NCBI GenBank assembly: GCA_013151245.1
Contig: JAADIR010000095.1
Location: 1 to 33,920, forward strand
Direction: 5' to 3'
From: Chlorobiota bacterium
Lineage (GTDB): Bacteria; Bacteroidota; Ignavibacteria; Ignavibacteriales; Melioribacteraceae
Length of the DNA: 33,920 nt
Shown here: piece after piece, positions 7,755 to 33,453 of the stretch
Layout of the letters: each line of letters begins with the position of its first letter
Position numbering within the stretch: the first letter of the stretch is position 1
The notes under the pieces: generated by a model
Told to the model about the DNA's origin: nothing
Database searches by the model: none
Seen by the model: only the letters and a program-made list of their open reading frames with translations
Program-made: the position numbers and the translations under genes

Positions 7755-10700
7755 TTATTGTATCGTAATCCTCACATCCAAACCGGCTTCGTTGGTAGTG
7801 GTAGCCGGAATTCTCGACGCGCCTTCCGGTTCCACGGAAGAGCGTTTGTAAAATATAGAAATCGTCACTTTTGAACTCATTACATACTTCAATCTCGGTT
7901 CCAGACTAATCCGCGTTGTTCCATCCTGCGGTTTTCCTCCTTCCTTATAATTATTCATCTCGTAAACAACTACAGAATTTTTCCCAAGCGTATATGAGAA
8001 AGAAAATTCCAAATCGTTTTTCAAACTCAATCCGAACAGCGGCAGTTCAAAACCGGATTTCGAAAAACTAGCGGAAATATTTATATCGCGCGAAAAAGTT
8101 TCCGAAATATTTTGGTTCGTAACCGCCAAATCAAATGAAGTCTTGGTGTTATACTTCAACGTCGCTCTTAAGTTTCCATCCCAAAATGTATCGAACGTTA
8201 AATTTAATCCAACCAGCGGATTGAAGCCGTAGCTCACTTTCTGGGAAGTCGTTTCGGAAATTCCGTCCGCATTAATTTTCGAACCTTCATAATAACTCGA
8301 ACTGTATGTATGATTTATAGATATCTTTTTTGCAATTCCTTTAAATATCGAATATTTTTCCAGTCCGTTCCAAGTAAAGGACCAATTTATTCTTGGGATA
8401 TATTGAAGCGCTTCCGATAGCAAAGGAATTTTTTGGAACCATGGAAGCGTTTCCATTCCCTCCCTGAACGAGTTGGTTAAATTTGCGTTTCTATCGACGG
8501 CGTTTGGGTCGTATAATTCCGCTACTTTGCTTATTCCCGAACCAAAGAATGGCAAAGCGAGAAAAGACCTGTCTATTGTGGAAGTTGAAGTAATATTTGT
8601 AACGGTGGCAATTCCAAGCGAATCCGTTTGAAGCTGCGTTGTTTTGTTTATCCCCCACGAAACTTTCCAATTAACGTCAATCTGCGCTCCCTGCCACAAC
8701 GGGCGAGAAGTTTTAATATCAAACGACGTCTTCTGCGAAAAGTTGTCGGACAAGTTTCCGTTTGGCGCTCTCGGTCCGAGGTCTTGAGAAAGCCCAAGCT
8801 GAAAAGCTCTCGAAGGACCGTTCATATTGTTAAACCCGACTCCCCAAAAGTTTGTGAACCCCGTGCCTGTGGCTAAAAGTCCCGAACCCCTTTTTGAGGA
8901 GTTCTGCTGAAAGTTCAACCTTATCTGGTCGTAATCAAAAAAGATGTATTTAATTGTTTGAGCCAAATAATTTAATCCGACTAAAAATATCGACGGAGAA
9001 TTGTCCGCTTTAATCGGATTTCCAAGCGAATCTGTTTTTGCCTTTTCAACATTTACTTCTTTACCCTTTTCAAGTTCTTTATCCACATTGCGCGATCTGT
9101 CGCGTCCGCTTCTTCCGCCGCGTCCTCTGTTCGATCTGCCGTTATTTGCGGTTGACCGCCGGGAATTTGCCGAAGACGAACCTTTTGATTTGAACAGCGG
9201 ATCGAAAATTGATTTCAATCTTATCTGCATTCCGGCGTTAAGATTTGATTGAAACCCCGCGCTTTTACCCAAATCTTCCTGCCGGAAATCGCGCTGCCAT
9301 GCGTACGAAACGCTGTAGCCCGCCGTAATTGTAAAATATTTATTTAAGTTCCCAAACGTCGGAAGCATCGGCTTGGTTTGGAAATCGAACAACTGTGCGT
9401 ATTTATAATCTTCGCCGAAACCTTTACCGTGGAATACGTCCCGCCATATTTCGCTTTCGGAGCGATCTACGTTATCGACGGCAAGTATTGAAGCGAGCGA
9501 AGCCGAGACGTCGACTTTATAATTCAGAGAAAGATTCAAGAACCCGCCTTCGGTAATTCTCCATAAAAATCCGAAACCGCGAGTAGTCGTAAAATCCCTG
9601 TGAATCGAAGGATCGATATTTATTCCCCGCGATTGGCTGAAGTTCCTCAGCCTTTTTGCCGTGGCAAGCGCTTTGAAGTTGGAAGGAGCAAACCTTATTT
9701 TCAAATCTTTGTAGTCGGAAATCAAACTAAAAAGAAAGCCGATGATTGGGATATCCGCCGGTTTGAAGAAGAGATTTTTACCGAAATTAACGCTGTAATT
9801 TGCGCTTGCGTTCCACTGCCAATTTTCCGACGATAAAATTGTGGGATTTCTATTGTACGTTTTATTGTAATTAAAACCGAACGTCAAATTGTTAACGATA
9901 TCTCTAACATACCAAGCCTCAGTAGGAACTTTAAATTTAATATTTGAAAGAGACCAAGTTTCATTCACCGAAAGAGTGTAAGTATCGTTTATCATTTGAT
10001 TTTTTATCTTATCGGCTGTCTCGGCGTTCTCTCCTCTGTTTTCCAAATCCTTTTTCTTTTGGTCGGCTGCTTCAGCCACTAAAATATCGGTGCCGGGTAA
10101 ATATATCGGTTTGGAAATCGATTCGGATCTTGAATAATTTAACGATAGATTGCTCCCCTGAAGATTGAACGGCAGCAGTTTTATAATGTCCACTGTTGTT
10201 GAAATTCCCCAAGAACGCTTATCAACGCGCGAACCGAACCGGTCGCCCAACTTGTGAAAAAACGGATCGGTTTGACTAGTGTTAAAATTAACCGAAAGAA
10301 TATCGGCAAATTTTATGCTGGACGATGCGCTGTAAGCCCAGCCTTTTCTGTCGTCGGCGCCGAGCACGCGCAGCTCGTTCAGCCAAACTTGCCCGCTTAC
10401 CGTTTCCCCCGCAATGCTCGAACCGTCCTTTTCCGGAGGATTATAAACAACAAACTGAAGCGCCGTAACTTTTGTTAACGTCGGTTTGCCGCGCACGCCG
10501 TAATAATGCCCGGGTTTTCCTTCAACCGGGACCTTGAACAACGTCTTAATCGGGATTGAATCGTTATCCCTCAACGCTTTGATAGCGGTCATTTTTGCAA
10601 AATCAATATCGATGTTGCCCCATCCCGCCCGCAACGGTTGACGGTATTCGTAAAAGTTTAACGAATCCGTCCCGAACCTGAAGATAACGTCCGCTCCATA

Positions 10701-13700
10701 ATTGTTCAGGTCTTGATAATAAGAAACCGAACCTTTTGTCGAGTCCATATCGCCGTGAACAAAAAGTTTCATCTTTTTGTAATTAAAAAGATCGAGCGGT
10801 TGATAGAGATATTTCACGGTCGAACGGGAATCCCCGTCTTCCAGTTCGGAAATAAACAACTGCAGCGATTGTTCGTTTTTTAAAACGTTTTGATCCGGTT
10901 TCGTTTTGTCTTTTTCCTGAAAAACTCCCGGAGGACTTGAATATTCAGGATTATCTTCAATGCTGATTGTTGAAATTGTAAGCACCGTATCTTCTTCGGT
11001 AATGCGCGGAGGCGATAAAACTTTTTGCCACTGATTTCCGACAAGATTAAACTCAGCCAACCGCATGTGCACTTCATGATCTACTCCGGCAACCCAGAGG
11101 CGAACAAATTCGACAACGGAAAAGCTGGGATTGTTAATCGCCTCTTCATAATCTTTTAATGGAATTTTAATGAGGTACCAGTTAGTTCCTCCGCCGCCTT
11201 GCACAAATTTGTTGTTGGCGCGGCTTGTATCGAGCGGAATCTTATATCTAAAATAACTATCGACGCGGTCAAGCGTAAAGTTACGGTTTAAGTCTTCGCT
11301 ATCAGGCGCTCTTCCCAAATCGGAAAGAACGGCATTCCCTTGAGTGCCGTTTATCTGCGTATAACTTTCAATACTTTCACCGCTGCCGAGCGCAAAGTTA
11401 TCCACGCTCGGATCGTCAAAATCAACTCCGTTAACCGCTCTTTCTTCCGCGTCTAAAATTCCGTCTATACCGGTATCTTCGCCTTCGTCAATCAAATCGT
11501 TTTGGTTTTTATCTTCAGTATCAAGAACTCCGTTTGGAATTACGTCTTCGCTAATCTGTCCCAAATCAATATAAAAATATTCATCCGGAGAAATATCGCC
11601 GTCAAGTTTCATCCAAAATTCAATAAACTCAATATTCTGCTCCACAAGGTTGTTAGCCGAAGATGAAAGAAGTTTCATCATACCCGACCAATTTTTTTTA
11701 GGTTCGTTTTCAAAATCCGCCGCGGGATTATAATTGTAAGAACCGCGCTCAGTCGGGCGCATTACATAATCCAGCACAGTAATCTGCTGTTCGTCTCTCG
11801 CGGCTGATTTCCTGTCCCCGTAAATATCCTGCACAAGAACATTGGACGGTAAAATGTTGAACCAAAATGATTTGGCTTTGTAAGCCATCTGCAAAGTATC
11901 CGCAAGCTGTCCGATATAAGGAAGGTTATCCGGAATTGATAGGTCTCTCCATGTTCCGTAGTTAATGCCGATAGGAATAATTTTTTTGGCTCCTTCAAAA
12001 TCGTCAATATAAGCGATGCTTTCGCTGTTATCGGAAACAATCGTACTGTTCTTTGTGTTCGGCGTCGGGTTCATATAAGCAAATTCGCCTTTTAACGAAA
12101 AGGTTGACATTTGCGAAGTGGAAAAAACTTTATCGAGCGCTTTTGTAAGAAACGGCATATCGAATTTCGTATTTAAGTCAACGCCCATAATAGAGTTGTT
12201 CAGCGGTTCTTCTCCGATCCTAACTTTATCGCTAAGAGTTTGCTGGTTTAAATTCAAATATGAAAAACCGATGTAATTATTTTTGTTGAAGTCGTACGTT
12301 CCTCTAAAACCGAACAATGTTTTTGAAGCCAGAGCAAATAAATCATTTTTTTCAAACGTTATTTTCAAATCGGCGCCCGGCACAAGAGCCGCGTCGTTCA
12401 TAATTGTGATTTGTCCGATGTTGTAATCAACTTGATAATCAACGCCTTCTTTCAATTCCCTACCGCCAAGCGTAACTTTAACGGAATTTTCAACCGCGTT
12501 AAAACCGATATTAAACGTCGATGAAACGTCCGCCGAATATTCGCCTTCCATAATCCACTTATCTTTGTCTCTATCTTGTTTTGCGAAAGTTACCGTCGTA
12601 TCGTAAACCGATTGGTATTTGTAATTCGGGTCCAAGTTAGCCGGATAATTTCCGCCGAACGGCTGAAGTCTCGGGAATATAATTTCGCCGGTCGAAGGAA
12701 TAATCGTTCTTCCGGGAACAAAGTCGAAGTTCCCGTCGGGCGGTCCCGTTCCCGCCGCGTCGGTTTGGTCAAGTTCAAACGCTTGAATCAGTTTTTTTCC
12801 GCCTAGTTCAAGAACAGGGTCTTGTCCTTCAATCTGATATTTTATATCGTAAGTAAATCCTTCCGATTTAATATCTCTACCGCCAATCGGATAAATATTT
12901 TTTAATTGAAGTTTCCACGCGGTTCTATATTTAGGTTGAAGGTTTGGCGGTTTTATTAACTTCAAAACAATTACTTTACTTGTGTCGCCCGCCGCGTCGA
13001 TATTAAATTCGCCGTAGAACTGATCGTCTTCATTGTTCCCCTGCTGCGGTCCTTCAATTCTATAAGCTACCGCAATGGCGTCCTGGTCTTGCACTTGCGA
13101 TTTGAAACTGATATAACCGGTTTCGCTGTGTATCTCATAATCAACGCCCTGGGTCAGACGCAGGAAACGTCTTCCGATAATCGTTTTTCCGTTTTCCGAT
13201 TCAAAATCCTGCGAGCGATAACTTTCATAAAACTGATTCGGATCGTCGGTATAATTCCTCGGAGGCAAATCAATAAAAGCGTTGCCTTTTCTTTCTTTCG
13301 GATTGTAAATACCGGTGTAAGTTTTCCAAACTTCAATATCTTTAACTTTTAATCTGTTGGCATTTTGATTTGGTCTGTAAACAGGGTTTCCGTAATAAAG
13401 ATAAAATAAATTATAGTCCGAGGAAGTATCTGCGTAAACAGTATCGATGAAATAATGAGTTTGAGAATATTGGTACGCGCGCACTTCAAATGTACTTTTT
13501 TCCGAGCCTCCTGTTACGTTAACTTCTTCCACCTCGCTCTTTTTCTGCGAAGCAAGGGCTATCAAGTTAAAAGGTCCCATCTTAAAATTGGCTTTCACTC
13601 CAAACAACGCTTCGCTTCCGCCGATTAACGGAGTGGTTTGAAGAGAAACGTTTCCCGCTTCAATACTTTGAATTATCTCGTCGTCATAGCCGGTATATTT

Positions 13701-14612
13701 CAGATGGAGTTGGTTCTCATATTCAAACGTTCTTTCGGTGTTCCAGTCGGCTCTAATTTCCAGTTTATCGCCGATTGTTCCGCTTACGTTTATTTGGACT
13801 TCCTGCTTAAAATCGGGTTCGTTTTTCGTGTTGCCCAATTGCGAAGCCGTCAGCCCTTCGGTTGTTTCGCTTTTCCAAGCGCCGTGGATATCAACCGCGC
13901 CGTTTATTTTCAAACTGATTTTCGGCGGTCCGAAAATGCTGAGGAAGGATGTGCTTGGAAGCGGAATATCAATGTTTGTAATATCGGAAAGGAGATCCGA
14001 CAATTCATATTTTCCCGTTTTCAATTCGTAAGCGTATCCTTTGTCTTCCCAAAGATCGCGATTTCCCCATTTCAATTTAAGTTTGATATATTCGTCAATC
14101 GGCAGTTTCAAAATAGGTTTCATTATGTTGCCGGCGACTTCTTCTTTAATTATAACATATTTTCCGGTCGAGTCAATTTCGACCGTGCGTTTCAAATATT
14201 TAGCGCTGGGGTAAACAAAGAAAGCCGATTTCTTTTTTTCGTGAAACGGAACGTAAGGTTCGTCCTTAAATTGGTGTTTGAAATATTCCAATCTCGCGGT
14301 TGAATCCAAAGCCATAGAATCGACTTTAACGGTATCAGCCATCGTCAACGAATCTGCGGTTTGAAGGCTGTCGGGAATCCGGAGAGAATCGGGAATGTTA
14401 CTTATGTTATTACTGTCCGGCGGCGACTTGCTGAGATAGTAATCAAGGTTGTCTATCAGAGCTTGTAATTCTTTTTCGTTTTTTTGAATTTTATTTGAAG
14501 ATATTGCAGAAAGAGCGCCGCTGTTAGAAGAAATTCCGGCTATGTCAACAACCGGATTTGAATACAGCAGTTCCGCTATCGTCTCTTTTGCAATGAAGCC
14601 AAAGACCGACAT
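7755..14612 (-). CDS. sprA: T9SS outer-membrane translocon SprA/Sov-like protein (N-terminus probably under-called)
   Basis: 2285 aa with SprA-type features: 'IFGPPKISLKINGAVDIHGAWKSET', 'GDKLEIRADWNTERTFEYENQL', 'AYIDDFEGAKK', repeated beta-barrel-like segments, C-terminal ISIFYKRSS...LDVRITIQ. Confidence 0.93.
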   Translation of the reverse strand: MSVFGFIAKETIAELLYSNPVVDIAGISSNSGALSAISSNKIQKNEKELQALIDNLDYYLSKSPPDSNNISNIPDSLRIPDSLQTADSLTMADTVKVDSMALDSTARLEYFKHQFKDEPYVPFHEKKKSAFFVYPSAKYLKRTVEIDSTGKYVIIKEEVAGNIMKPILKLPIDEYIKLKLKWGNRDLWEDKGYAYELKTGKYELSDLLSDITNIDIPLPSTSFLSIFGPPKISLKINGAVDIHGAWKSETTEGLTASQLGNTKNEPDFKQEVQINVSGTIGDKLEIRADWNTERTFEYENQLHLKYTGYDDEIIQSIEAGNVSLQTTPLIGGSEALFGVKANFKMGPFNLIALASQKKSEVEEVNVTGGSEKSTFEVRAYQYSQTHYFIDTVYADTSSDYNLFYLYYGNPVYRPNQNANRLKVKDIEVWKTYTGIYNPKERKGNAFIDLPPRNYTDDPNQFYESYRSQDFESENGKTIIGRRFLRLTQGVDYEIHSETGYISFKSQVQDQDAIAVAYRIEGPQQGNNEDDQFYGEFNIDAAGDTSKVIVLKLIKPPNLQPKYRTAWKLQLKNIYPIGGRDIKSEGFTYDIKYQIEGQDPVLELGGKKLIQAFELDQTDAAGTGPPDGNFDFVPGRTIIPSTGEIIFPRLQPFGGNYPANLDPNYKYQSVYDTTVTFAKQDRDKDKWIMEGEYSADVSSTFNIGFNAVENSVKVTLGGRELKEGVDYQVDYNIGQITIMNDAALVPGADLKITFEKNDLFALASKTLFGFRGTYDFNKNNYIGFSYLNLNQQTLSDKVRIGEEPLNNSIMGVDLNTKFDMPFLTKALDKVFSTSQMSTFSLKGEFAYMNPTPNTKNSTIVSDNSESIAYIDDFEGAKKIIPIGINYGTWRDLSIPDNLPYIGQLADTLQMAYKAKSFWFNILPSNVLVQDIYGDRKSAARDEQQITVLDYVMRPTERGSYNYNPAADFENEPKKNWSGMMKLLSSSANNLVEQNIEFIEFWMKLDGDISPDEYFYIDLGQISEDVIPNGVLDTEDKNQNDLIDEGEDTGIDGILDAEERAVNGVDFDDPSVDNFALGSGESIESYTQINGTQGNAVLSDLGRAPDSEDLNRNFTLDRVDSYFRYKIPLDTSRANNKFVQGGGGTNWYLIKIPLKDYEEAINNPSFSVVEFVRLWVAGVDHEVHMRLAEFNLVGNQWQKVLSPPRITEEDTVLTISTISIEDNPEYSSPPGVFQEKDKTKPDQNVLKNEQSLQLFISELEDGDSRSTVKYLYQPLDLFNYKKMKLFVHGDMDSTKGSVSYYQDLNNYGADVIFRFGTDSLNFYEYRQPLRAGWGNIDIDFAKMTAIKALRDNDSIPIKTLFKVPVEGKPGHYYGVRGKPTLTKVTALQFVVYNPPEKDGSSIAGETVSGQVWLNELRVLGADDRKGWAYSASSSIKFADILSVNFNTSQTDPFFHKLGDRFGSRVDKRSWGISTTVDIIKLLPFNLQGSNLSLNYSRSESISKPIYLPGTDILVAEAADQKKKDLENRGENAETADKIKNQMINDTYTLSVNETWSLSNIKFKVPTEAWYVRDIVNNLTFGFNYNKTYNRNPTILSSENWQWNASANYSVNFGKNLFFKPADIPIIGFLFSLISDYKDLKIRFAPSNFKALATAKRLRNFSQSRGINIDPSIHRDFTTTRGFGFLWRITEGGFLNLSLNYKVDVSASLASILAVDNVDRSESEIWRDVFHGKGFGEDYKYAQLFDFQTKPMLPTFGNLNKYFTITAGYSVSYAWQRDFRQEDLGKSAGFQSNLNAGMQIRLKSIFDPLFKSKGSSSANSRRSTANNGRSNRGRGGRSGRDRSRNVDKELEKGKEVNVEKAKTDSLGNPIKADNSPSIFLVGLNYLAQTIKYIFFDYDQIRLNFQQNSSKRGSGLLATGTGFTNFWGVGFNNMNGPSRAFQLGLSQDLGPRAPNGNLSDNFSQKTSFDIKTSRPLWQGAQIDVNWKVSWGINKTTQLQTDSLGIATVTNITSTSTIDRSFLALPFFGSGISKVAELYDPNAVDRNANLTNSFREGMETLPWFQKIPLLSEALQYIPRINWSFTWNGLEKYSIFKGIAKKISINHTYSSSYYEGSKINADGISETTSQKVSYGFNPLVGLNLTFDTFWDGNLRATLKYNTKTSFDLAVTNQNISETFSRDINISASFSKSGFELPLFGLSLKNDLEFSFSYTLGKNSVVVYEMNNYKEGGKPQDGTTRISLEPRLKYVMSSKVTISIFYKRSSVEPEGASRIPATTTNEAGLDVRITIQ

Positions 14613-15539: not shown

Positions 15540-16895
15540 TTAATTAACCTTATAAGTTTCGTAAGCAAATCGTTTCAGTTCTTCTTTGAAATCGGGATGC
15601 GATATTTCGATTAATGCTTTTGCCCTTTCTTGAATAGTTTTACCGAAAAGATTAACTACTCCGTATTCGGTTGCAACATAATGAACGTCGCCGCGGGAAG
15701 TAACTACTCCCGCTCCTTCTTTTAACGTGGGAACGATGCGGGATATTTTCCCGTTCTTCGTAACCGAAGGAAGGGCAATTACGGCTTTGCCTCCTTCGGA
15801 ATGAGCGGCTCCGCGGACAAAATCAACTTGTCCTCCTATTCCCGAATATAAACGCGTCCCGATCGAATCGGAACAAACTTGTCCCGTCAAATCAATTTCA
15901 ATTGCGGAATTGATTGCAACCATCTTTTTATTTTTCGCTATTATAAAAGGATCGTTCACATATTCCTGCGGATGAAATTCAATTATAGGATTATTATCGA
16001 GAAAATCGTACAAACGTTTAGTGCCTAAAACAAATCCGGCGATAATTTTTCCGGGATGAAGCGTTTTTTCTTCGCCGTTGATTATTCCCTGCTCGACAAG
16101 ATCAATGATTCCGTCGGAAAACATTTCCGTGTGAACTCCGAGATTGTTTCTGTCGTAAAGATAATTCATCACCGCGTCGGGAATTGCGCCGATTCCCATC
16201 TGCAAAGTCGCTCCGTCTTCAATCAATTCGGAAACGTTCTTCCCTATTCTATCATAAATATCCAAAATTTCCGTTGAAGCGTTCGGATCAATTTGCGGCA
16301 GTTCCAGCAGCGGCTCGGAATATTCAACTATGTAATCGATTTTACTAATATGAATAAAACTGTTCCCCAGTCCGCGCGGCATGTGTTCGTTAACTTGAGC
16401 GATTACTATTTTTGATTTTTCGGCGGGCGTTTTGATATTTCCAACATCAATTCCGTAACTGCAAAAACCGTGTTCGTCCGGCGGAGAAACATGAATCATC
16501 GCAACGTCCGGTTTGATAATTCCGTTTTTAAATAACAGCGTAACTTCGGAAAGAAAAATCGGAATGAATTCGGCTCTCCCTTCGTTTACAGCCGTTCTTG
16601 TATTTTGTCCGATGAAAAACGCTCTGTGTTTAAAATGTTTTTCCATTCCCGGCTGCATGTAAGGCAAATCTCCTACGACAAGTATGTGGTAAATTTCAAC
16701 GTCCTCAAGATCGTCTTTTCTTTCCACCATCGATCGAATTAACTTTAACGGAGCGGCGCATCCGGGCTGCACAACAACTTTGTCGCCGGATTTAATTACT
16801 TCGACGGCTTCCTCCGGCAAAACGATTTTCGATTTATATTTTGCGTGCCAGCCTTGCCGTTTTATATGTTTTAATTTTGATTCTTGAATATTCAT
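15540..16895 (-). CDS. Acetyl-CoA hydrolase/transferase family protein (4-hydroxybutyrate CoA-transferase-like)
   Basis: 451 aa; GATLQMGIGAIPDAVMNYL, HTEMFSDGIIDLVEQG, GIGGQVDFVRGAAHSEGGKAVIALPS, EYGVVNLFGKTIQERA. Confidence 0.92.
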   Translation of the reverse strand: MNIQESKLKHIKRQGWHAKYKSKIVLPEEAVEVIKSGDKVVVQPGCAAPLKLIRSMVERKDDLEDVEIYHILVVGDLPYMQPGMEKHFKHRAFFIGQNTRTAVNEGRAEFIPIFLSEVTLLFKNGIIKPDVAMIHVSPPDEHGFCSYGIDVGNIKTPAEKSKIVIAQVNEHMPRGLGNSFIHISKIDYIVEYSEPLLELPQIDPNASTEILDIYDRIGKNVSELIEDGATLQMGIGAIPDAVMNYLYDRNNLGVHTEMFSDGIIDLVEQGIINGEEKTLHPGKIIAGFVLGTKRLYDFLDNNPIIEFHPQEYVNDPFIIAKNKKMVAINSAIEIDLTGQVCSDSIGTRLYSGIGGQVDFVRGAAHSEGGKAVIALPSVTKNGKISRIVPTLKEGAGVVTSRGDVHYVATEYGVVNLFGKTIQERAKALIEISHPDFKEELKRFAYETYKVN

Positions 16896-16911
16896 TATTG
16901 TTCACTTTTTC

Positions 16912-18060
16912 CTAATTAATCGAAAATATGTGTAATCTTTTATAGTTCACGTTAAATATTTCGCAGAGAGATTCGTTTGTACAAAAACCTTTATGAAAAC
17001 AAACTCCGTTTGCCAATCCTTCGTTGCCCATAAGAGTATGCAGCAATCCGTCGTCCGCTATTTGTTTAATATATGAAATTGAAGAATTGGTCAATCCGTA
17101 ACTTGCAGTTCTCGAAACAAGCGCCGGAATGTTCGGAACGCAATAATGAATGACGTTATGTTTTACAAAAGTAGGCTGCGATATTGAGGTAGGATAGCTC
17201 GTTTCAACGCACCCGCCTTGATCGATGGCAACGTCAACAATAACGGCTCCTTTTTTCATTGATTTAACCATCTCCTCCGTTACAAGGTTCGGAGATTTCA
17301 TTCCTTTTGTTTGAGCCGCGCCTATCAAAATATCTGCAAACTTACAGCCGCGCGCAATTGTGTAAGGGTTTGCCGCAACGGTTGTGATGTTCTTCCCCAA
17401 AAGATTTTCAATTCTTCGCAAACGATAGAGATCTTTATCCAAAACAATTACTTGCGCGCCTCTTCCCAACGCGGCTCTTGCGGCGTTCATTCCAACTACG
17501 CCGGCTCCTAAAATAACGACCGCCGCCGGAGCAACGCCCGTTATTCCGCCGATAAGAATTCCTCTGCTTTCCGGGATGTCGCTCTTTAAATATTTTTCGC
17601 CGATGTGCATTGCAATTTGCCCCGCAATTTCACTCATCGACTGGAGAACCGGAAGTTCGCCGTTTTCTTCTATCAATTCGTAACTGATTGCCGTTATTTT
17701 TTTGTTTAATAAAACGTCAATAGTCTTCTTCCGTCCTACGGCTAAATGGAGAAATGAAAAAAGGATTTGTCCTTCTACTAGCAAGTTGGCTTCTTCATCG
17801 CTTAAAGGGGCGACTTTGGTAATCATTTCAGCGCGCTGATAAACTTCTTCCTGAGAATAGACAATTTGTCCGCCGACTTTTTCATATTCTTGATCGGTAA
17901 AATGACTTTCCAAACCCGCTCCGGTTTCAATATAAACAGTGTGTCCCGAACGAACCAACGCGTCAACGCCCGCCGGAGCTAACGAGACTCTCTTTTCTTC
18001 CAAATTTTTTTCTCTCGGTATTCCGATTCTCATATTAATAACCTCGTTTTTTTTCATCAA
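16912..18060 (-). CDS. ald: Alanine dehydrogenase
   Basis: MRIGIPREKNLEEKRVSLAPAGVDALV; VVILGAGVVGMNAARAALGRGAQVIVLDKD; VDVAIDQGGCVETSYPTS. Start may be the internal MRIGIPRE. Confidence 0.95.
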   Translation of the reverse strand: MMKKNEVINMRIGIPREKNLEEKRVSLAPAGVDALVRSGHTVYIETGAGLESHFTDQEYEKVGGQIVYSQEEVYQRAEMITKVAPLSDEEANLLVEGQILFSFLHLAVGRKKTIDVLLNKKITAISYELIEENGELPVLQSMSEIAGQIAMHIGEKYLKSDIPESRGILIGGITGVAPAAVVILGAGVVGMNAARAALGRGAQVIVLDKDLYRLRRIENLLGKNITTVAANPYTIARGCKFADILIGAAQTKGMKSPNLVTEEMVKSMKKGAVIVDVAIDQGGCVETSYPTSISQPTFVKHNVIHYCVPNIPALVSRTASYGLTNSSISYIKQIADDGLLHTLMGNEGLANGVCFHKGFCTNESLCEIFNVNYKRLHIFSIN

Positions 18061-18395: not shown

Positions 18396-18992
18396 TCAAT
18401 TTCGGGCAAATTTTATTAACGTCTTATAATTGTTTTTATCCGCCTCTTTCAAAGCATTAATATATTCGCTTCTAGTTTCGCTAATGTCGGTTAAGTTTTT
18501 CCCTCCCCACGAAAAAGAACTTTTCCCAAAACATTTTTCAATCAAAATATCGGCGATCATTCTTGAATGTCTTCCGTTGCCGTTAGGAAAGCAATGGATT
18601 TTTACGATTCTATGACTAAACCTTACGGCAAATTCATCCGGCGCAAACGTACTATTTTCTTTCCAATATTTGGCGTCTTCAATTAATTTCCTTAATTCCG
18701 TTTTAATAAAAAACTTATCAACTCCAATATTTTTATTCGTGTTTCTAAATGAGCCTGCCCATTTCCACACATTGCCGAACATTCTATTGTGTAATTCTTT
18801 AATGAATTCAACCGATAAAACTTTTTCAAAATTAAACGATTTACCGAGGAGCCATTCGTTTGCTTCGTCAATATTCAATTGTTCAAATTCGTTAAGCTCG
18901 CCTAGAGTTGTAATTGAAGGGATAAGAAGTTCTTCTTTCTCGTCGTCGTCAATTGGAGTTTGACCGTCAATATAATTTAAGTTTAATCCCAT
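18396..18992 (-). CDS. Fic-domain protein, 'mobile mystery protein B' type
   Basis: Fic motif HCFPNGNGRHSR; GNVWKWAGSFR; overlaps the mmpA-like gene by 10 nt. Confidence 0.88.
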   Translation of the reverse strand: MGLNLNYIDGQTPIDDDEKEELLIPSITTLGELNEFEQLNIDEANEWLLGKSFNFEKVLSVEFIKELHNRMFGNVWKWAGSFRNTNKNIGVDKFFIKTELRKLIEDAKYWKENSTFAPDEFAVRFSHRIVKIHCFPNGNGRHSRMIADILIEKCFGKSSFSWGGKNLTDISETRSEYINALKEADKNNYKTLIKFARN

Positions 18993-19447
18993 AAATATTT
19001 AGGTTTTTCTTCTTTTAGTTTTGCCGCTCTTTCTTTAATAGCTTCTTTCAAACGTTCTTCGGTGTTTTGCTGGTCTTCCAAAGCCATATTGTGAGAAGTT
19101 TTCCTTATAATGCTTTCAGCCAAAATCAAAGCCCGTTTTTCAATCATTTTTTCAAGAGAACCTTCATACGGAATAAATCCGTAAACAAATTTTAAATTTA
19201 GCGCTTCCCCTAATTCCATTAGTTTTTTAAGGGTAATAGTTTTATTGGCTTCCCTATCTTCAAGTTCTTTAACCGTTGGTGAGGATTTGTTTAATTTTTT
19301 CGCTAATTGAACGAGCGTCATATTTAATGCGGTTCTTATAGTTTTAATCCACCCGCCTTGCGGAGTTTGAATTCCCTCCAGTACGGAAAGTTGTTTTATT
19401 TTGCGGTCAAGCTGTTTTAGCATTAGATTTTTATTAAAGTTATCCAT
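18983..19447 (-). CDS. XRE-type HTH protein, 'mobile mystery protein A' type
   Basis: IQTPQGGWIKTIRTALNMTLVQLAKKLNKSSPTVKELEDREANKTITLKKLMELGEALNLKFVYGFIP, followed directly by the Fic partner. Confidence 0.88.
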   Translation of the reverse strand: MDNFNKNLMLKQLDRKIKQLSVLEGIQTPQGGWIKTIRTALNMTLVQLAKKLNKSSPTVKELEDREANKTITLKKLMELGEALNLKFVYGFIPYEGSLEKMIEKRALILAESIIRKTSHNMALEDQQNTEERLKEAIKERAAKLKEEKPKYLWD

Positions 19448-25569: not shown

Positions 25570-26805
25570 ATGGCGTTTACAGGTTCCGATTTAATCCGTT
25601 CGAGTTTGACAATGATTCTTGCAGGCGGCGTGGGGCAAAGACTCTATCCATTAACGATGGAAAGGACAAAACCTTCGGTTCCTTTCGGCGGCAAATATCG
25701 CATTATTGATTTCGCCCTTTCAAATTGTCTTAATTCGGGTTTGAGAAAGATTTACGTTCTCACTCAATACAAGTCCGATTCCTTATCCCGACATATTTTT
25801 GAAGCGTGGAATATTTTCAATTCCGAATTGGATGAGTTTATCTATTCGGTTCCGCCGCAGCAGAAAAAGAGCAACGATTGGTATCTCGGCACTTCCGACG
25901 CTATTTTTCAAAATCTTAATTTAATTGAAGATAGACATAAATGGGTAATCATGCTTTCGGGCGATCATATTTATAAAATGGATTATCTTAAAATGCTGCA
26001 GTACCACATAAACAAGGGCGCCGATATGTCAATCTCAAGTATTTATGTGCCTAAAGAGACGGCGGACAGATTCGGAGTGCTTGAAATAGACGAAAATTAT
26101 GTTGTGAAATCTTTTGTTGAAAAGCCGAAAGACCCGCCCGAAGCGCCGGACAAAGCCGGATATTCTTTTGTAAATATGGGAATTTATATTTTCAACGCTT
26201 CCGTTCTTAAAGACGTTCTTAACGAAATGCATTCAAAAAATATCGAACATACCGATTTCGGAAAGCATGTGATTCCTTATATGCTCAAAAAGAATTTCGA
26301 CATTTATTCCTTCCGCTTTGTTGATGAAAACAGAAAAGAAAAACCTTATTGGGTTGACGTTGGAACTTTAGACAGTTATTATGCGGCAAGTATGGATTTG
26401 ATAAGCGTAATTCCTCATTTCAATTTATACGATACGCATTGGCCCATTAGAACAAAACAAGTTCAGCTTCCGCCGGTTAAAACTTTGTCCCACGAAGGCG
26501 AAAGAGTAGGACGGATTTTCAATTCACTCGTTACCGACGGCACAATCGTATCGGGCGGTTTGGTCGAACGCTCAATCTTAGGACCGAACGTTCACGTCAA
26601 CAGTTACAGTTACGTTACCGATTCAATTATTATGGATAACTGCAATATAGGACGCCGCGCCAGAATCCGCAGAGCGATTATTGATAAAAATGTTATCGTT
26701 CCCGAAGGAACTGAAATCGGCTTCGATTCCGAAGCGGACAAACAAAAATTTACCGTAACCGAAACCGGCATTGTCGTAATCCCGAAAAATTATAAGTTTG
26801 AATAA
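25570..26805 (+). CDS. glgC: Glucose-1-phosphate adenylyltransferase
   Basis: MILAGGVGQRLYPLTMERTKPSVPFGGKYRIIDFALSNCLNSGLRKIYVLTQYKSDSL; C-terminal beta-helix-like region. Confidence 0.97.
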   Translation: MAFTGSDLIRSSLTMILAGGVGQRLYPLTMERTKPSVPFGGKYRIIDFALSNCLNSGLRKIYVLTQYKSDSLSRHIFEAWNIFNSELDEFIYSVPPQQKKSNDWYLGTSDAIFQNLNLIEDRHKWVIMLSGDHIYKMDYLKMLQYHINKGADMSISSIYVPKETADRFGVLEIDENYVVKSFVEKPKDPPEAPDKAGYSFVNMGIYIFNASVLKDVLNEMHSKNIEHTDFGKHVIPYMLKKNFDIYSFRFVDENRKEKPYWVDVGTLDSYYAASMDLISVIPHFNLYDTHWPIRTKQVQLPPVKTLSHEGERVGRIFNSLVTDGTIVSGGLVERSILGPNVHVNSYSYVTDSIIMDNCNIGRRARIRRAIIDKNVIVPEGTEIGFDSEADKQKFTVTETGIVVIPKNYKFE

Positions 26806-26944
26806 TCTTATTAATTTTACAATCGGAAACTATTAAATAGAGAATTATCCATTCTCCATCATACATTGTCCATCAAACAAGTTCCGTTGTTTTTAACTAT
26901 TGTATTATCTTTCAAGAAAGAAAAATATTTTATACGGAGAAACA

Positions 26945-29900
26945 ATGGGCGAAAAAGATATTCTTTCCCTTGAAGAAATAAGAGAAAAAGTTTTTGCCGG
27001 TTCGGCGTCGCTTGAGGAAAATGAAAAAGCCGACGTTATTTCGGCTATTATTTACGCTATTGAAAAGCCGCTTGAGTCGTTCGACGAAAACGAGATAAAA
27101 TTGCTTGAGGAATCCCTCGCCAATCTGTTTGTTTCCGGTCTCGCCGAAGCGCTGGTTGATACGATTGAACCGGAAATATATTTTACGTTCGGCAAAAGAC
27201 TTTTCGACGATGAGAAATTTCATTCGTCCAAACCGTTCGCAAAACTAATTCACGCATACTTGGACGTTTTTCGTCATCCGGTTTTTTTGAAGAAGATTTA
27301 CGGCGACAGAAGTTGGGACTCTTTAATTTCTTCATTGATTTCCAAAAGTAATTTTCGTGTAAAAGAATTATTTGAACAAAGAGCGTCCGAATACGGAAAT
27401 AAACCTTTGCTGAGAACCATTTCCAACAAGCGGACCGTTAATTATTCATGGTCGTACGTCGCCAAAAAAACAAGCGAATACGCCGCCGCCCTCGCCGAAA
27501 ACATTTCCGGTCCGGAAAGCAAAGTCGCATTTTTGATGAGCAACAGTCTGCAAATGGCTCTTCTCGATCTATCGTGTCTTACTTCCGGCGTCGTAAACGT
27601 TATGCTGCCCGGCAATTCCGTCTCGCAGCATATTGAATACATTTTAAATCAAACAAAGGCGGAGCTTCTTCTTGTTGAAAACGAAAAACAACTTTCGAAA
27701 GTTAAGATTGTAAAAAACAGACTTCATTATGTTAAAAAAGTCGTTCTGCTCGAAGGCGCCAGCGTTGAAAAATGGGTTGTTTCATTTAAGGAATTTCTAA
27801 CGGCAAAAGGAAACGGAAGCGAAATTTTAGAGAAGCTCGAAAAGGAAAGGACGGTTGAATCAACCGCAACGCTTATGTACACTTCGGGAACGACCGGAGA
27901 GCCGAAAGGAATTATTTTCAAAAACAAGAACATTGTTTTTAAAAGATTCTGCCGCGCAATGGCGCTGCCCGATATCGGCGAACGCGACAGATTTCTTTCC
28001 TACCTCCCGCTCTTTCACACCTTCGGGAGATTCCTCGAACTTATGGGCTCGGTCTTCTGGGGCGCGGAATATATTTTTATTGAGAACCCTTCCGCCGAAA
28101 CGATGATTTCCAATATGCGTCTGGTTCAGCCGACAATTTTTATCAGCATTCCCAAAAAGTGGATGGAACTCTATGAGCATATCGCTTTGCAATGCGACAT
28201 TGAGTTTGACAACGAAGAAAATATAAGACAAACGGTTGAATCATTTACCGGCGGAGCGTTGAAATTCGGGCTTTCAGCCGCGGGTTTTCTTCCCCCTGAA
28301 ATATTCAAGTTCTTCCAAAAATACGGCGTGGAAGTAATGAGCGGATTCGGGATGACCGAAGCCACCGGCGGAATAACAATGACGCCTCCCGGAAAATATT
28401 CGGAAAACTCTTTGGGCGCGGCTTTGCCGGGCGTTGAAATTAAACTTGCAGAAGACGGCGAGCTTTTAATCCGCGGCGATTACGTGATGGACGGCTACTA
28501 CGGACGCGCGAAAGAGGAAGTCTTCGATTCGGAAGGCTGGTTTCCAACCGGCGACGTGATGAAAACGGATTCGAACGGTTTCATCGAAATTATCGACAGA
28601 AAAAAAGAGATATACAAAAACATAAAAGGCGAAACGATAGCGCCGCAGAAAATTGAGAATTTCTTCCGCGACTTTGAGTTCATTCATCAAGTCTTTCTTG
28701 TGGGCGACCACAAGCCGTTTAACGCTCTCCTCATTCATCCGACGGAAGAAACGGAAGACAGCCCGCTCCGCGATATGACCGAAGAACAAAAACACGATTA
28801 TTACGCTTCGTCGGTCGCAACCGTCAATCATTTTCTCGCGCCGTTCGAAAGGATAATCGATTTTAGAATTATCGCACGCCCCTTCTCCGCAGAATTGGGC
28901 GAGGTTACTCCGAAAGGGACTTACAAGCGGAGAGTTATTGAAAAGAATTTTGACGACGTTATTTCGGGAATGTATAAAAAGAATCACACCGAAGTTAACG
29001 TAAACGGTCTTGTCGTAAAAATTCCAAATTGGTTTCTGCGCGAGAAAGGAATTCTTTCCCGCGACGTTTTTGCGGAAGACGATAAATTGGCAATACCGGA
29101 ACTTGAAAAAGAATTGACAATCAAAAAAATTGACGCCGATAAATCCGTTTATCAAATAGGCGATTATAATTTTGTAATAAACGATTCGTCAATCGATCTT
29201 CAGCTGATACTAATTGATCCGCGTCTTTGGCTTGGCAACGCGTCTTTTGTAGAATTCACCGGAGAGGAAATTATCCAGTGGGTCCGAAGTCCGCGCCAAG
29301 AACCGAAATTTAGATTTCATTCAAAACAAAACGCCGAATTCGATTTGCCGATTTTAAAAGTAAGAAGAAAAATTGAAGCCGGAGAAGTTTCGTTCCTCGG
29401 TCTTCATCAAGCGCTATTGATTCTTGAAGCGGACAATTACGAAGCTCAGCCGGCGGCGGTAAAATACGTCTCGTTATGTTTGAAAGACGAAACTCTGCCG
29501 GTTCATAAATATGCGTTAAACGTTCTCCGCAATCCTCAATTGGCGACGTTCAAAGAAACGAGACGGGAACTGTTAAAACTTATAATATTAAATTCTAAAT
29601 TGGATAATCTTAAAGAGTTTATTCTAACTTTCTTAAAAATCGATTATGATATAATTACGAACGACGTAGTTGAAATAATCGTAAAACTGAAAGACAAGAA
29701 CAAAGTTCTGGAAATTATTGAAAACATACTTTTCGAAATAGTAAAAGAATTACCGTCCGGATCGGATATTGCAAAATCTCCCGCGCCCAGCGTCTTCAAT
29801 CTTTTATCCGTTTACGGCGTCAAACATCCCGCCAAATATAAGCATATCAGACGCGTGATGGTTTTCTATCAGTTAAATCCGGAAAACAAACCGCTTGCTC

Positions 29901-31726
29901 AAATAGCCGCCGACGAACGCTCGCGTATGAGAAGCGGATTCCGAAAATGGCTCGGAGAAAATCAGCGGATTGCAATTCATCAGGAAACCGGCGAGGAATA
30001 CAGCTGGGAAGACGTTATCATTTTTGAAGAAGGAATTAACGAAGCGGATAAACAAAAAATCGTTAATTCAATAGTCAACACGCCGATATTGCGCGAAACG
30101 ATTTTTTTAATCGCAAACGGAAGACAAATCGGTTTGTCAAATATTCTTCCGAACGGAATTTGGATCAGTTTTCTGCACGAAGACGACTTCAAAACTTCGT
30201 ACCGCGTTTCGGTTCAAACCGATTATTTCGGGTTGTTCGATATTGTTTTAAATATCAACAAAGGACTGCCGAAAAGCGAAATTATTGAGGAAGTAAATTG
30301 GCATTGCCTTTCCGATTCCAGATATTTCAATCAAGAATTGCTCGGCGAACTCGGCGCGCTGTACCGCGACGGAGAAATTTGGAGCGCAAAATTTATTTCC
30401 GGCGAATCGGTGGCAAAATTTCTTTTCAGAAAATCGAAAAAAGGAACCGCCGAAAGCGAGCGGCGGCTTTTCTTCCTCTGGCCGTTTTTTATTTGGAATT
30501 CCGCCTCGCTCTATTTCGGTTTTTGGCGGTTGACCGGAAAACGAATGTTCCTTGAAGACGCTTCCCCTTCCAATTTCATTATTCCTCCGCACGATTATCA
30601 AACGGGCACAAGAATTGTTTCAATAACCAAACGGGCGGAATTCGAAAACCTTAGCGAACTTTTCAGCCTCTATTTTGAAAGTATGATTGAAAAAACCGAG
30701 GAACAATATCCTTTCCTGAAAAAAGAAAAAATATGGAAATATATTTTCAGCGGTTTGATTAATTCATTCGGCGAAAAGGAAGGTTTGAGAATACTTAAAG
30801 AACTGCAGAGAGAATTGACCGATATTCCTTCCGGAAAATTCAAAAACGCTCTGCCGGAATTGGACGAGTTTCTGCGGAACATCGAAGAGTTCGGTTTCAT
30901 TCCAAAGCAGCTTTACTTTGCAATCAAAAGATTCCACAGATGGCTCGCGCTCAATGAGGACGCGCAGTTGAACGCTATTGCCGAAATGCTGAAAGAGCTT
31001 TATTCCACATATCAGCTGAACGAATGCGAAAAGAATTACCCCGAAACGCGAACGAAGTTTTTCCTTATGACGATTTTTGCGGGAACAAATTCCGAACTTG
31101 AATTGAAACTCAACGAAATCATACAGCTTCAGCGAAACGACGACCTGAACAAAGAAGAAACAATCGCCCGCCTTTCGGATATTAAAAACCAAATTGAATT
31201 GAGCGAACGGGAAGATTATTTCTTAACGCGTTTGAGCTATCCGCATATTAAACCGTCGGACGAAGCGGCAATCCTTCGTATGCAGACCGAAGGCGCGCCG
31301 TCGTCTAATCTTGTCGTGCAGTACGAAGATTTCGACGGCAATCCTTTTATGATTCGCAAACCGATTTCGCCGAAAGAAATTTCCCGGCTTCATCAATTAT
31401 TTATTGAAGCGAATATGCTCGTAACGTTTCAAAGCGACCACGAATTTCTTATCGCGCTTTCCGAACGCGGGTTTATTATCGGCGGACTTTTCTATCGTTT
31501 CATCGACGGCGAAACTGTCTATATGGATAAGATTGTCGTCTCCAACCGTTACCGCCACAAAGGCGTAAGCGACAAATTGATGAACGAACTTTTCAACAGA
31601 ATGAAAACGCAAAACGTACAAAACGTTACAACCGGATTTTTCCGACCGGAATATTTTTACCATTTCGGGTTTAAAATTGAACGGAAGTATTCCGGATTAG
31701 TAAAAAAATTATGGGCAAATAAATAG
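26945..31726 (+). CDS. Multidomain protein: N-terminal AMP-binding acyl-CoA ligase, uncharacterised middle region, C-terminal GNAT-like acetyltransferase
   Basis: LMYTSGTTGEPKGI, GFGMTEATGG, WFPTGDVMKTDSNGFIEIIDRKKE (ANL family); C-terminal MDKIVVSNRYRHKGVSDKLMNELFNRMKTQNVQNVTTGFFRPEYFYHFGFK (GNAT-like). The supplied ORF starts at 26900; ATGGGCGAAAAAG at 26945 is the likelier start. Confidence 0.88.
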   Translation: MGEKDILSLEEIREKVFAGSASLEENEKADVISAIIYAIEKPLESFDENEIKLLEESLANLFVSGLAEALVDTIEPEIYFTFGKRLFDDEKFHSSKPFAKLIHAYLDVFRHPVFLKKIYGDRSWDSLISSLISKSNFRVKELFEQRASEYGNKPLLRTISNKRTVNYSWSYVAKKTSEYAAALAENISGPESKVAFLMSNSLQMALLDLSCLTSGVVNVMLPGNSVSQHIEYILNQTKAELLLVENEKQLSKVKIVKNRLHYVKKVVLLEGASVEKWVVSFKEFLTAKGNGSEILEKLEKERTVESTATLMYTSGTTGEPKGIIFKNKNIVFKRFCRAMALPDIGERDRFLSYLPLFHTFGRFLELMGSVFWGAEYIFIENPSAETMISNMRLVQPTIFISIPKKWMELYEHIALQCDIEFDNEENIRQTVESFTGGALKFGLSAAGFLPPEIFKFFQKYGVEVMSGFGMTEATGGITMTPPGKYSENSLGAALPGVEIKLAEDGELLIRGDYVMDGYYGRAKEEVFDSEGWFPTGDVMKTDSNGFIEIIDRKKEIYKNIKGETIAPQKIENFFRDFEFIHQVFLVGDHKPFNALLIHPTEETEDSPLRDMTEEQKHDYYASSVATVNHFLAPFERIIDFRIIARPFSAELGEVTPKGTYKRRVIEKNFDDVISGMYKKNHTEVNVNGLVVKIPNWFLREKGILSRDVFAEDDKLAIPELEKELTIKKIDADKSVYQIGDYNFVINDSSIDLQLILIDPRLWLGNASFVEFTGEEIIQWVRSPRQEPKFRFHSKQNAEFDLPILKVRRKIEAGEVSFLGLHQALLILEADNYEAQPAAVKYVSLCLKDETLPVHKYALNVLRNPQLATFKETRRELLKLIILNSKLDNLKEFILTFLKIDYDIITNDVVEIIVKLKDKNKVLEIIENILFEIVKELPSGSDIAKSPAPSVFNLLSVYGVKHPAKYKHIRRVMVFYQLNPENKPLAQIAADERSRMRSGFRKWLGENQRIAIHQETGEEYSWEDVIIFEEGINEADKQKIVNSIVNTPILRETIFLIANGRQIGLSNILPNGIWISFLHEDDFKTSYRVSVQTDYFGLFDIVLNINKGLPKSEIIEEVNWHCLSDSRYFNQELLGELGALYRDGEIWSAKFISGESVAKFLFRKSKKGTAESERRLFFLWPFFIWNSASLYFGFWRLTGKRMFLEDASPSNFIIPPHDYQTGTRIVSITKRAEFENLSELFSLYFESMIEKTEEQYPFLKKEKIWKYIFSGLINSFGEKEGLRILKELQRELTDIPSGKFKNALPELDEFLRNIEEFGFIPKQLYFAIKRFHRWLALNEDAQLNAIAEMLKELYSTYQLNECEKNYPETRTKFFLMTIFAGTNSELELKLNEIIQLQRNDDLNKEETIARLSDIKNQIELSEREDYFLTRLSYPHIKPSDEAAILRMQTEGAPSSNLVVQYEDFDGNPFMIRKPISPKEISRLHQLFIEANMLVTFQSDHEFLIALSERGFIIGGLFYRFIDGETVYMDKIVVSNRYRHKGVSDKLMNELFNRMKTQNVQNVTTGFFRPEYFYHFGFKIERKYSGLVKKLWANK

Positions 31727-31776: not shown

Positions 31777-33453
31777 ATGAAAAAATATTTTATTCTTTTT
31801 CTTACGACGGCGTTTCTCGGCTACGCGCTGATCGGCTGCAAGACAAACAACGCAAACGAAAACTCAAAACCGGGAAAGAGCGAGATGCAAAAGAAAATAG
31901 ACCAATTCGCGAAAACGGAAGTGAAATACGACGCTTCCCTACTCGATGAAAATCAAAAGAAAATTGTTCATAACCTATACGAAGCGGCGAAGATAATCGA
32001 CAAAATATTTTTAACGCAAGTCTATTCGAAAAATCCCGAAATTAAAAAAGAACTTACCGCGGCAAAGGACGAAAAAAGCAAAGAGATTTTGGAATATTTC
32101 AATATTATGTTCGGACCGTTCGACAGACTCGACCACGACAAACCGTTTTACGGTAAAGAAGAGAAACCGTTGGGCGCGAACTTCTATCCCGAAGATATGA
32201 CAAAAGAGGAATTTGCGAATTGGATTAAAAATCATCCCGAGGACGAAGAATCTTTTACGTCGGAATACACGGTTATCAAGAGAAACGGCGATTCGCTTTA
32301 CGCCGTTCCTTACGCCGAAGAATACCAGGAAGATTTGACAAAGATAATTGCGTATCTCCGCGAAGCCGCCGAATTCGCAGATAATCCTACGCTGAAAAAA
32401 TATCTTCTCGCTAGAGCTAAATCGTTTGAAACGAACGATTATTTTGAAAGCGATATGGCGTGGATGGATTTGAAAGATTACAGAATTGAAGCGGTGATTG
32501 GACCTTACGAAGTTTACGAAGACGGATTGTTCAACTACAAAGCGTCTTACGAAGCGTTCGTCACAATCGTCGATCCGGCGGAATCCGCTAAATTGAAAAA
32601 GTTCGCATCTTATTTAACCGACATCGAAAAGAATCTTCCTATCGACGACAAATACAAAAACTTCGACCGCGGTTCGGAATCGCCGATCGTAGTCGTGCAG
32701 GAAGTTTACGCTGCCGGAGACGCAAAAGCGGGCGTGCAGACTTTGGCTTTCAATCTTCCTAACGACGAGCGCGTGCGCAAAGCTAAAGGCTCCAAAAAAG
32801 TGATGTTGAAAAATATTCACGAAGCGAAATTTGAAAAACTTTTGAAACCGATAGCCGAAATTGTTTTGGATTCTTCTCAATTAAAATACGTTACGTTCGA
32901 CGGATTTTTCAATCACACTTTGATGCACGAAATTTCCCACGGAGTCGGTCCGGGTTTCATCACGGTTGACGGAAGAAAAACGGAAGTGAAAAAAGAATTG
33001 AAAGAAACATATTCCACAATGGAAGAATGCAAAGCCGACATTTTGGGAATGTTCAACAACGCGTTTATGATTACGAAAGGCGTTTATCCCGCATCGTTCG
33101 ACAAAGAAACTTACGCGACCTTCCTCGCCGGAATTTTCCGCTCAATCCGATTCGGAATAAACGAAGCCCACGGCGGCGGCAACGCGATTATTTACAACTA
33201 CCTTCTCGCAAAAGGCGCTTACGAATACAATGAAAAAACGGAAAAAGTTAAAGTCAATTTCGAAAAAATATATCCGGCTTTAACCGATTTGGCGCACGAC
33301 GTTCTTATGCTCCAAGCCGAAGGAAATTACGAAGGCGCGAAAAAGTTCATCGCAAAATACGCGGTTCTTTCCCCTTCGATGAAAACTTTGATAGGAAATC
33401 TTTCCGGTTTGCCGATTGACATTAAGCCGGTTTTTCAGATTGAAGAAAATTAG
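31777..33453 (+). CDS. M49-like (dipeptidyl peptidase III-related) zinc hydrolase, lipoprotein
   Basis: Signal peptide with lipobox-like ALIGC; HTLMHEISHGVGPG then EECKADILGMF; GGGNAIIYNYLLAKGAYEY. Confidence 0.82.
   Translation: MKKYFILFLTTAFLGYALIGCKTNNANENSKPGKSEMQKKIDQFAKTEVKYDASLLDENQKKIVHNLYEAAKIIDKIFLTQVYSKNPEIKKELTAAKDEKSKEILEYFNIMFGPFDRLDHDKPFYGKEEKPLGANFYPEDMTKEEFANWIKNHPEDEESFTSEYTVIKRNGDSLYAVPYAEEYQEDLTKIIAYLREAAEFADNPTLKKYLLARAKSFETNDYFESDMAWMDLKDYRIEAVIGPYEVYEDGLFNYKASYEAFVTIVDPAESAKLKKFASYLTDIEKNLPIDDKYKNFDRGSESPIVVVQEVYAAGDAKAGVQTLAFNLPNDERVRKAKGSKKVMLKNIHEAKFEKLLKPIAEIVLDSSQLKYVTFDGFFNHTLMHEISHGVGPGFITVDGRKTEVKKELKETYSTMEECKADILGMFNNAFMITKGVYPASFDKETYATFLAGIFRSIRFGINEAHGGGNAIIYNYLLAKGAYEYNEKTEKVKVNFEKIYPALTDLAHDVLMLQAEGNYEGAKKFIAKYAVLSPSMKTLIGNLSGLPIDIKPVFQIEEN

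Follow-up and report, generated by a model that had tools for sequence, protein, structure and literature searches.

In Aas, the acyl-ACP synthetase/phospholipid acyltransferase, a ligase and an acyltransferase are carried in one chain, and the transferase is a PlsC-type O-acyltransferase. In class I (types I and II) bacterial lysine acetyltransferases, an inactive NDP-forming acyl-CoA-synthetase homologue is joined to a GNAT domain (PMC11254643). In Bacilli, the GNAT enzyme AcuA binds the ANL enzyme AcsA, acetylates its A10 lysine and shuts it off (PMC11255334), and AcuB brings adenine-nucleotide sensing to this circuit (PMC13121692).

A gene on the forward strand of the analysed DNA (a 33,920-nucleotide stretch, referred to here as the window) was compared with these systems. 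It encodes, in order, an AMP-forming acyl-CoA ligase, a long middle region with a kinase-like fold and a GNAT acyltransferase. Like Pat/YfiQ of Salmonella and E. coli, the protein is large and multidomain, with an acyl-CoA-synthetase-type domain and a terminal GNAT. The synthetase homologue of Pat/YfiQ is NDP-forming and inactive, whereas that of the fusion is an AMP-forming ANL domain with intact motifs; an NDP-forming domain was absent from the Pfam results of the window protein. The fusion also holds a beta-rich module, helical repeats and a probable pseudokinase, which lie outside the Pat/YfiQ description. With AcsA-AcuA(-AcuB) of B. subtilis, where a GNAT controls an ANL ligase and AcuB is the nucleotide sensor, it shares the pairing of ANL ligase and GNAT. 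However, the Bacilli components are separate proteins and the fusion is one chain; the domains of AcuB are Bateman (CBS) and ACT, whereas the fusion has a kinase-like fold; and AcsA is an acetyl-CoA synthetase, while the closest relatives of the fusion's ligase are long-chain fatty-acid ligases. The likeness to Aas is conceptual: Aas-family models match the ANL part of the fusion (NF006386), but Aas has a PlsC-type transferase instead of a GNAT and is without the pseudokinase. No description of a ligase-pseudokinase-GNAT architecture was found in searches of the literature open without subscription.

Gene structure and the ligase and GNAT ends of the chain

The gene lies in one uninterrupted reading frame (26900–31726, forward strand, as for all parts of the fusion and its two immediate window neighbours given below), as had been reported in a first-pass annotation of the same DNA. 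Translation from a TTG at 26900 yields 1608 aa, and translation from the ATG at 26945 yields 1593 aa plus stop (complete fusion gene, 26945–31726). Because a ribosome-binding site, GGAG at 26936–26939, stands six bases before it, the ATG appears the likelier start, and residues are numbered from it. The domain anatomy described here is well supported. An N-terminal extension (aa 1–135, 26945–27349) had no Pfam match and carries a conserved IHxYLDLFR..FL..IY block near aa 102–119.

The ANL acyl-CoA ligase domain (aa 143–680, 27371–28984), already recognised in the first-pass annotation, was matched by the Pfam families PF00501 (AMP-binding; aa 143–519, E 2e-58) and AMP-binding_C_3 (aa 560–680, E 1.6e-13). 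Its motifs were examined in an alignment of 78 members and proved invariant in all of them: T313, S314, G315, T317, K321 and G322 of the A3 motif YTSGTTGEPKG (aa 312–322, 27878–27910), E472 of the A5 motif, G536-D537 of the TGD motif, and D551, R552, K554, K558, G562, P567 and E571 of the A8 region. The AMP-binding fold together with the A3, A5, A7 and A8 motifs places the domain in the ANL superfamily. In the A10 region, TPKGTYKRR (aa 655–663, 28907–28933), K657 and R662 are likewise invariant (78/78), and a Thr or Ser stands where many long-chain ligases carry the lysine of TPTxKxKR. A ligase dead through loss of the A10 lysine was considered and dropped: a standalone 627-aa ligase of the window's own genome reads TPKLSVKRK in its A10 region and so shares the TPKxSxKR pattern, for which reason the unusual place of the lysine was not read as inactivity. 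From its motifs, the ligase is seemingly a live AMP-forming enzyme.

The nearest NCBIfam models were those of long-chain fatty-acid--CoA ligases, carboxylic acid reductase and similar enzymes, all scoring far under their cut-offs (for FadD-type curated long-chain ligase models, 202 against a required 476 bits and 199 against 950 bits), and the models therefore do not fix the acid substrate. The fusion has the ANL core, AMP-binding_C_3 and the DRxKxxYK A8 motif in common with FadD/FadD11 and ACSL-type ligases, but differs from them in these low scores and in its 900-aa extension.

At the other end of the chain, the GNAT domain (aa 1440–1588, 31262–31708) that had been suspected from the letters was borne out by several methods. 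PF00583 matched aa 1495–1562 above its curated cut-off (E 8.9e-6), GNAT models matched 40/40 aligned members, and structure prediction of the middle and C-terminus returned a GNAT fold by AlphaFold2 and Foldseek, which places the domain in the GNAT superfamily; a structure without this fold would have refuted the first-pass reading. The equivalent of the CoA-pyrophosphate loop is RHKGVS (aa 1537–1542, 31553–31570), of the R/Q-x-x-G-x-G/A type; across the family the loop reads R-x-x-G-x-S/A/G, and in the window a Ser replaces the last G/A. A group of distant members (L039–L047) has the canonical RGRGIG loop.

A GNAT-only profile was searched against solved structures, and the best match was the histone lysine acetyltransferase GCN5 of Tetrahymena (E 6e-10), followed by an uncharacterised S. 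aureus GNAT (2e-6) and by PCAF and KAT2A (1e-3). GCN5/PCAF histone acetyltransferases are thus the best solved-structure relatives of this profile, but the likeness is short-range only and the fusion stands in a bacterial multidomain context. The best curated bacterial GNAT models (NCBIfam) were PRK07757, which matched 38/40 members, RimI and ArgA-like. A protein lysine would be the favoured acceptor on these profile matches; since the domain is also near ArgA-like and RimI models, a free amino acid or alpha-amine could be accepted instead.

The middle region and its kinase-like fold

Between the ligase and the GNAT match, aa 681–1473 of the window protein had zero Pfam matches, in agreement with the first-pass annotation, in which no motif could be named for roughly 750 residues. 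An AlphaFold2 model of aa 683–1593 (mean pLDDT 88, pTM 0.75) predicts, in order, a beta-rich module, a helical array, a mixed domain (including a lobe of three strands), then long helices and finally the GNAT. The beta-rich module (aa 684–794, 28994–29326; model and alignment) matches no known family and holds a conserved IPNWFLREKG block, in which P694 and W696 are invariant in a 40-member profile alignment (A1). A helical-repeat stretch had also been suspected, and the model places a HEAT/ARM-like array at aa 803–1003 (29351–29953), the least conserved stretch of the chain.

For aa 1003–1435, a second AlphaFold2 model was built from 78 sequences (pLDDT 91.5, pTM 0.88) and compared with the PDB using Foldseek, which gave 468 matches at E ≤ 1e-3. 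Nearly all of the best 50 of these were protein kinases (FGFR2 at E 6.8e-6, JAKs, EGFR, CDC7), and a lanthipeptide-synthetase kinase domain was also among them. The FGFR2-type best match had a probability of 1.00, with TM-scores on the target of about 0.4; the predicted two-lobe kinase fold class (aa 1025–1435 with a helical C-terminal extension, 30017–31249) is accordingly supported and the relation is called remote. Pfam sequence profiles gave no kinase match. In the longer model, PI3K and VPS34 headed the Foldseek list (E 1.5e-4, TM-score 0.19, rmsd 18.6 Å) because the order of helical array then kinase is shared. This predicted likeness is suggestive, yet membership of the PI3K family is doubtful, the match being collinear over helical and kinase parts but with a TM-score of only 0.19.

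The first-pass annotation had speculated that 'EDASPSNFIIPP...RIVSIT' recalls an APH/choline-kinase-like fold. The kinase-like fold stood in the predicted structure; the APH/choline-kinase reading was rejected, as none occurred among the best 50 of the 468 PDB matches, and neither the window protein nor the 40 aligned members had an APH or ChoK Pfam match.

Kinase residues were mapped from the secondary structure of the model and the alignment, without coordinate superposition. So mapped, the beta3 strand is without the conserved lysine in the 78-member alignment. In the degenerate catalytic-loop equivalent, DASPSN (aa 1205–1210, 30557–30574), the Asn is kept in 68/78 members, and position N-5, equivalent to the HRD Asp, is Asp in only 36/78. 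The equivalent of the DFG Asp is Ser1226, Ser in 76/78 and Thr in 2/78. Given the missing beta3 Lys and DFG Asp and the variable HRD Asp equivalent, the domain is probably a pseudokinase. Its predicted fold is alike to those of eukaryotic-type protein kinases, PI3K/VPS34 and lanthipeptide-synthetase kinases, but catalytic residues are missing from it. The most conserved block of the kinase part lies in the helices after the pseudo-active site (aa 1325–1380, 30917–31084); it reads AIKRFHRW...AEML.ELY.TY...YPETRTRFF, with W1333, Y1356, R1369 and T1376 invariant in the 78 sequences.

Distribution of the family and its gene neighbourhoods

In order to survey the architecture, aa 690–1593 were used as a query against 146 sampled relatives. 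Matches were found in 68, nearly always within one frame of about 1530–1640 aa. The A1 profile added three members in another group of the class (frames of 1532–1548 aa), and in the rest of the phylum its matches were short and partial, confined to the GNAT or the helical part. In a collection of genome contigs, the window sequence alone retrieved zero relatives, and an alignment-based scan of the same collection found them in 140 stretches from several phyla. The 80 stretches kept belong to Ignavibacteria/Melioribacteraceae, Calditrichota, KSB1, Gemmatimonadota, Acidobacteriota and some MAGs with loose taxonomic labels. Nearly every one yielded a full-length ORF, the exceptions being contig ends and one probable frameshift (L109, with 840 and 742 aa in neighbouring frames). 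Apart from these exceptions, no member with the ligase, middle or GNAT naturally separate or missing was seen in five phyla.

On the family tree the window protein clusters with Melioribacteraceae-type sequences, and the nine distant sequences L039–L047 form a separate subfamily with about 20% identity in the C-terminal part. The fusion is an old, conserved family and not a single-genome oddity. It had earlier been called unusual, and that description holds with respect to known architectures; as an oddity it does not. The survey did not turn up a widely characterised architecture.

Neighbouring genes were compared in 90 stretches. A citrate synthase gene lay within 600 bp of the fusion in 32 of them by tblastn. 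In 25, all Ignavibacteria, it is upstream on the same strand. The seven linked loci outside Ignavibacteria belong to Gemmatimonadota, Acidobacteriota, KSB1 and the unclassified Bpl_9; here citrate synthase is convergent downstream (L135, L141, L143, L147, L149), downstream on the same strand (L137) or upstream on the same strand (L142). It sits beside the fusion in at least three arrangements, and it is the sole neighbour class in the 90 stretches that crosses phyla. The adjacent citrate synthases tested belong to the eukaryotic-like (Si)-synthase type, and at the KSB1 locus L143 the gene belongs to a different citrate-synthase subfamily with a distinct sequence. Along the family tree, the neighbour arrangement switches 12 times. 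If a genome of several thousand genes has one or two for citrate synthase, adjacency by chance would be expected, as an estimate, in well under one of the roughly 20 non-Ignavibacteria stretches.

A citrate synthase match was present in 138/146 relatives irrespective of the fusion. Presence of the enzyme was consequently rejected as a correlate of the fusion, and only adjacency is informative. Within the 90 stretches, Calditrichota and the distant clade L039–L047 had no citrate synthase nearby. In the window, a glucose-1-phosphate adenylyltransferase gene (GlgC type; 25570–26805; Pfam and neighbourhood comparison) is upstream, in the slot that citrate synthase occupies in many Ignavibacteria. 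The window's assembly (93.3% complete) gave no match to citrate synthase of any type, which may reflect a gap in the assembly or genuine loss of the gene. Unless the gene lies in such a gap, citrate synthase would not be the sole target in this organism.

Other neighbours were recorded as side observations. In about 21 Ignavibacteria loci (L073–L132), citrate synthase and the fusion are preceded by a pair of squalene/phytoene-synthase-like genes plus one amine-oxidase-like gene, a set that resembles HpnC/D/E, and genes for CTP synthase and purine metabolism frequently come after the fusion. In KSB1, inspection of the sequence showed the fusion next to acetate kinase in L130 and next to glycogen synthase in L131; with glgC in the window, these loci show other central-carbon genes in the citrate-synthase slot. 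Downstream of the fusion in the window is an M49-type (dipeptidyl-peptidase III-like) lipoprotein peptidase (31777–33453; Pfam), which is not conserved with it. Elsewhere in the window, an acetyl-CoA hydrolase/transferase-type protein, also acetyl-CoA-related, stands beside alanine dehydrogenase (15540–18060), a response-regulator-PglZ protein (PorX-like; 6130–7701) adjoins a very large SprA-type (gliding/type IX secretion) protein (7755–14612), and a small Fic/DOC-domain protein (18396–19447) comes right after a helix-turn-helix protein, a possible toxin-antitoxin-like pair.

Deacetylase genes were also surveyed among the relatives. Sirtuins are near-universal. In one family, HDAC-like genes occurred in about 20/38 fusion-bearing against 2/about 41 fusion-less genomes; the trend was opposite in another family, and deacetylase co-occurrence was judged phylogenetic and uninformative.

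Proposed function and competing explanations

Our preferred reading, with a rough probability of 0.4, is that the fusion is a single-chain acyl-CoA ligase and lysine-acyltransferase regulator whose targets would be the ligase of its own chain and/or citrate synthase. Its observed basis is the ANL motifs, the GNAT fold with its CoA loop, and the kinase-like fold without key catalytic residues. A lysine acyltransferase regulator is proposed because the fusion holds a ligase, a nucleotide-fold domain that is apparently non-catalytic and a GNAT, as in the AcsA/AcuA/AcuB and Pat precedents; citrate synthase is proposed as a target because it is the sole gene repeatedly encoded beside the fusion. 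The A10 lysine off its textbook position counts against this reading, as do the closeness of the GNAT to ArgA-like and RimI models and the absence of an adjacent citrate synthase in the window, Calditrichota and the distant clade. The ligase would join a carboxylic acid to CoA at the expense of ATP, and the GNAT would use this acyl-CoA and pass the acyl group to protein lysines, the likeliest targets being the ligase itself and/or citrate synthase. Self-acylation of the ligase would act as a feedback shut-off, as AcuA does to AcsA, and the pseudokinase and helical array may serve as an adenylate/acyl-CoA sensor and docking scaffold. The fusion would then be the single-protein equivalent of the Acs/Pat-type control of acetyl-CoA metabolism by acylation, placed where carbon enters the TCA cycle. 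The self-contained acyl-transfer machine suggested in the first-pass annotation is a plausible candidate reading. The most specific version, in which a competent ligase feeds its own acyl-CoA to a lysine acyltransferase that is gated by the pseudokinase as nucleotide sensor and sets citrate synthase activity across phyla, would amount to a new kind of protein-acylation machinery in bacterial metabolism and is doubtful.

The main rival is a bifunctional small-molecule N-acyltransferase, in which the ligase would activate a fatty acid and the GNAT would acylate an amine or amino acid, giving an N-acyl amino acid or aminolipid. This is possible, if somewhat unlikely: the ligase's closest relatives are long-chain fatty-acid ligases and the best GNAT relatives include ArgA-like amino-acid N-acetyltransferase models as well as PRK07757 (38/40), but lipid-synthesis and amino-acid genes are unlinked to the fusion across phyla, where citrate synthase is the only recurring neighbour, and the large pseudokinase/helical middle is hard to fit to a simple two-step enzyme. 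Unlikely to a slightly greater degree is a fatty-acid ligase with a regulatory tail, whose GNAT would be an acetyl-CoA sensor that modifies the ligase using acetyl-CoA only and leaves the ligase product unused. Acyl-CoA ligases are known GNAT targets (PMC11255334), and ligase and GNAT are fixed in cis in every member seen whole; by itself, however, such a tail leaves the repeated citrate-synthase linkage unexplained.

That the middle works as an atypical kinase, whether of PI3K-like or protein-kinase-like type, and makes the fusion a signalling enzyme is improbable. The confident kinase fold, the PI3K/VPS34-like order of helical and kinase parts (E 1.5e-4) and the catalytic-loop Asn (68/78) are set against an absent beta3 Lys, an N-5 Asp in only 36/78, a Ser or Thr in place of the DFG Asp in 78/78 and PI3K matches at a TM-score of 0.19 only, and an active protein or lipid kinase was rejected on these residues. 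The idea that the ORF is misread, or the fusion a product of chance or of sequencing error, has nothing but the unusual length in its favour and is refuted by the recurrence of the same arrangement of about 1600 aa in 68/146 relatives and in 140 matched stretches of several phyla.

Bacterial lysine acetyltransferases with an acyl-CoA-synthetase-like domain are already known, but their synthetase is a dead NDP-forming one. A conserved family that unites a seemingly live AMP-forming ligase, a probable pseudokinase and a GNAT within a single chain would represent a distinct and testable design, one that would couple acyl-CoA supply to acylation control in phyla little studied for this. That the fusion is linked to citrate synthase time and again, in one case to a different subfamily of it, provides a concrete candidate target, and the conserved set, often next to citrate synthase, suggests a hitherto uncharacterised switch acting on central carbon metabolism.
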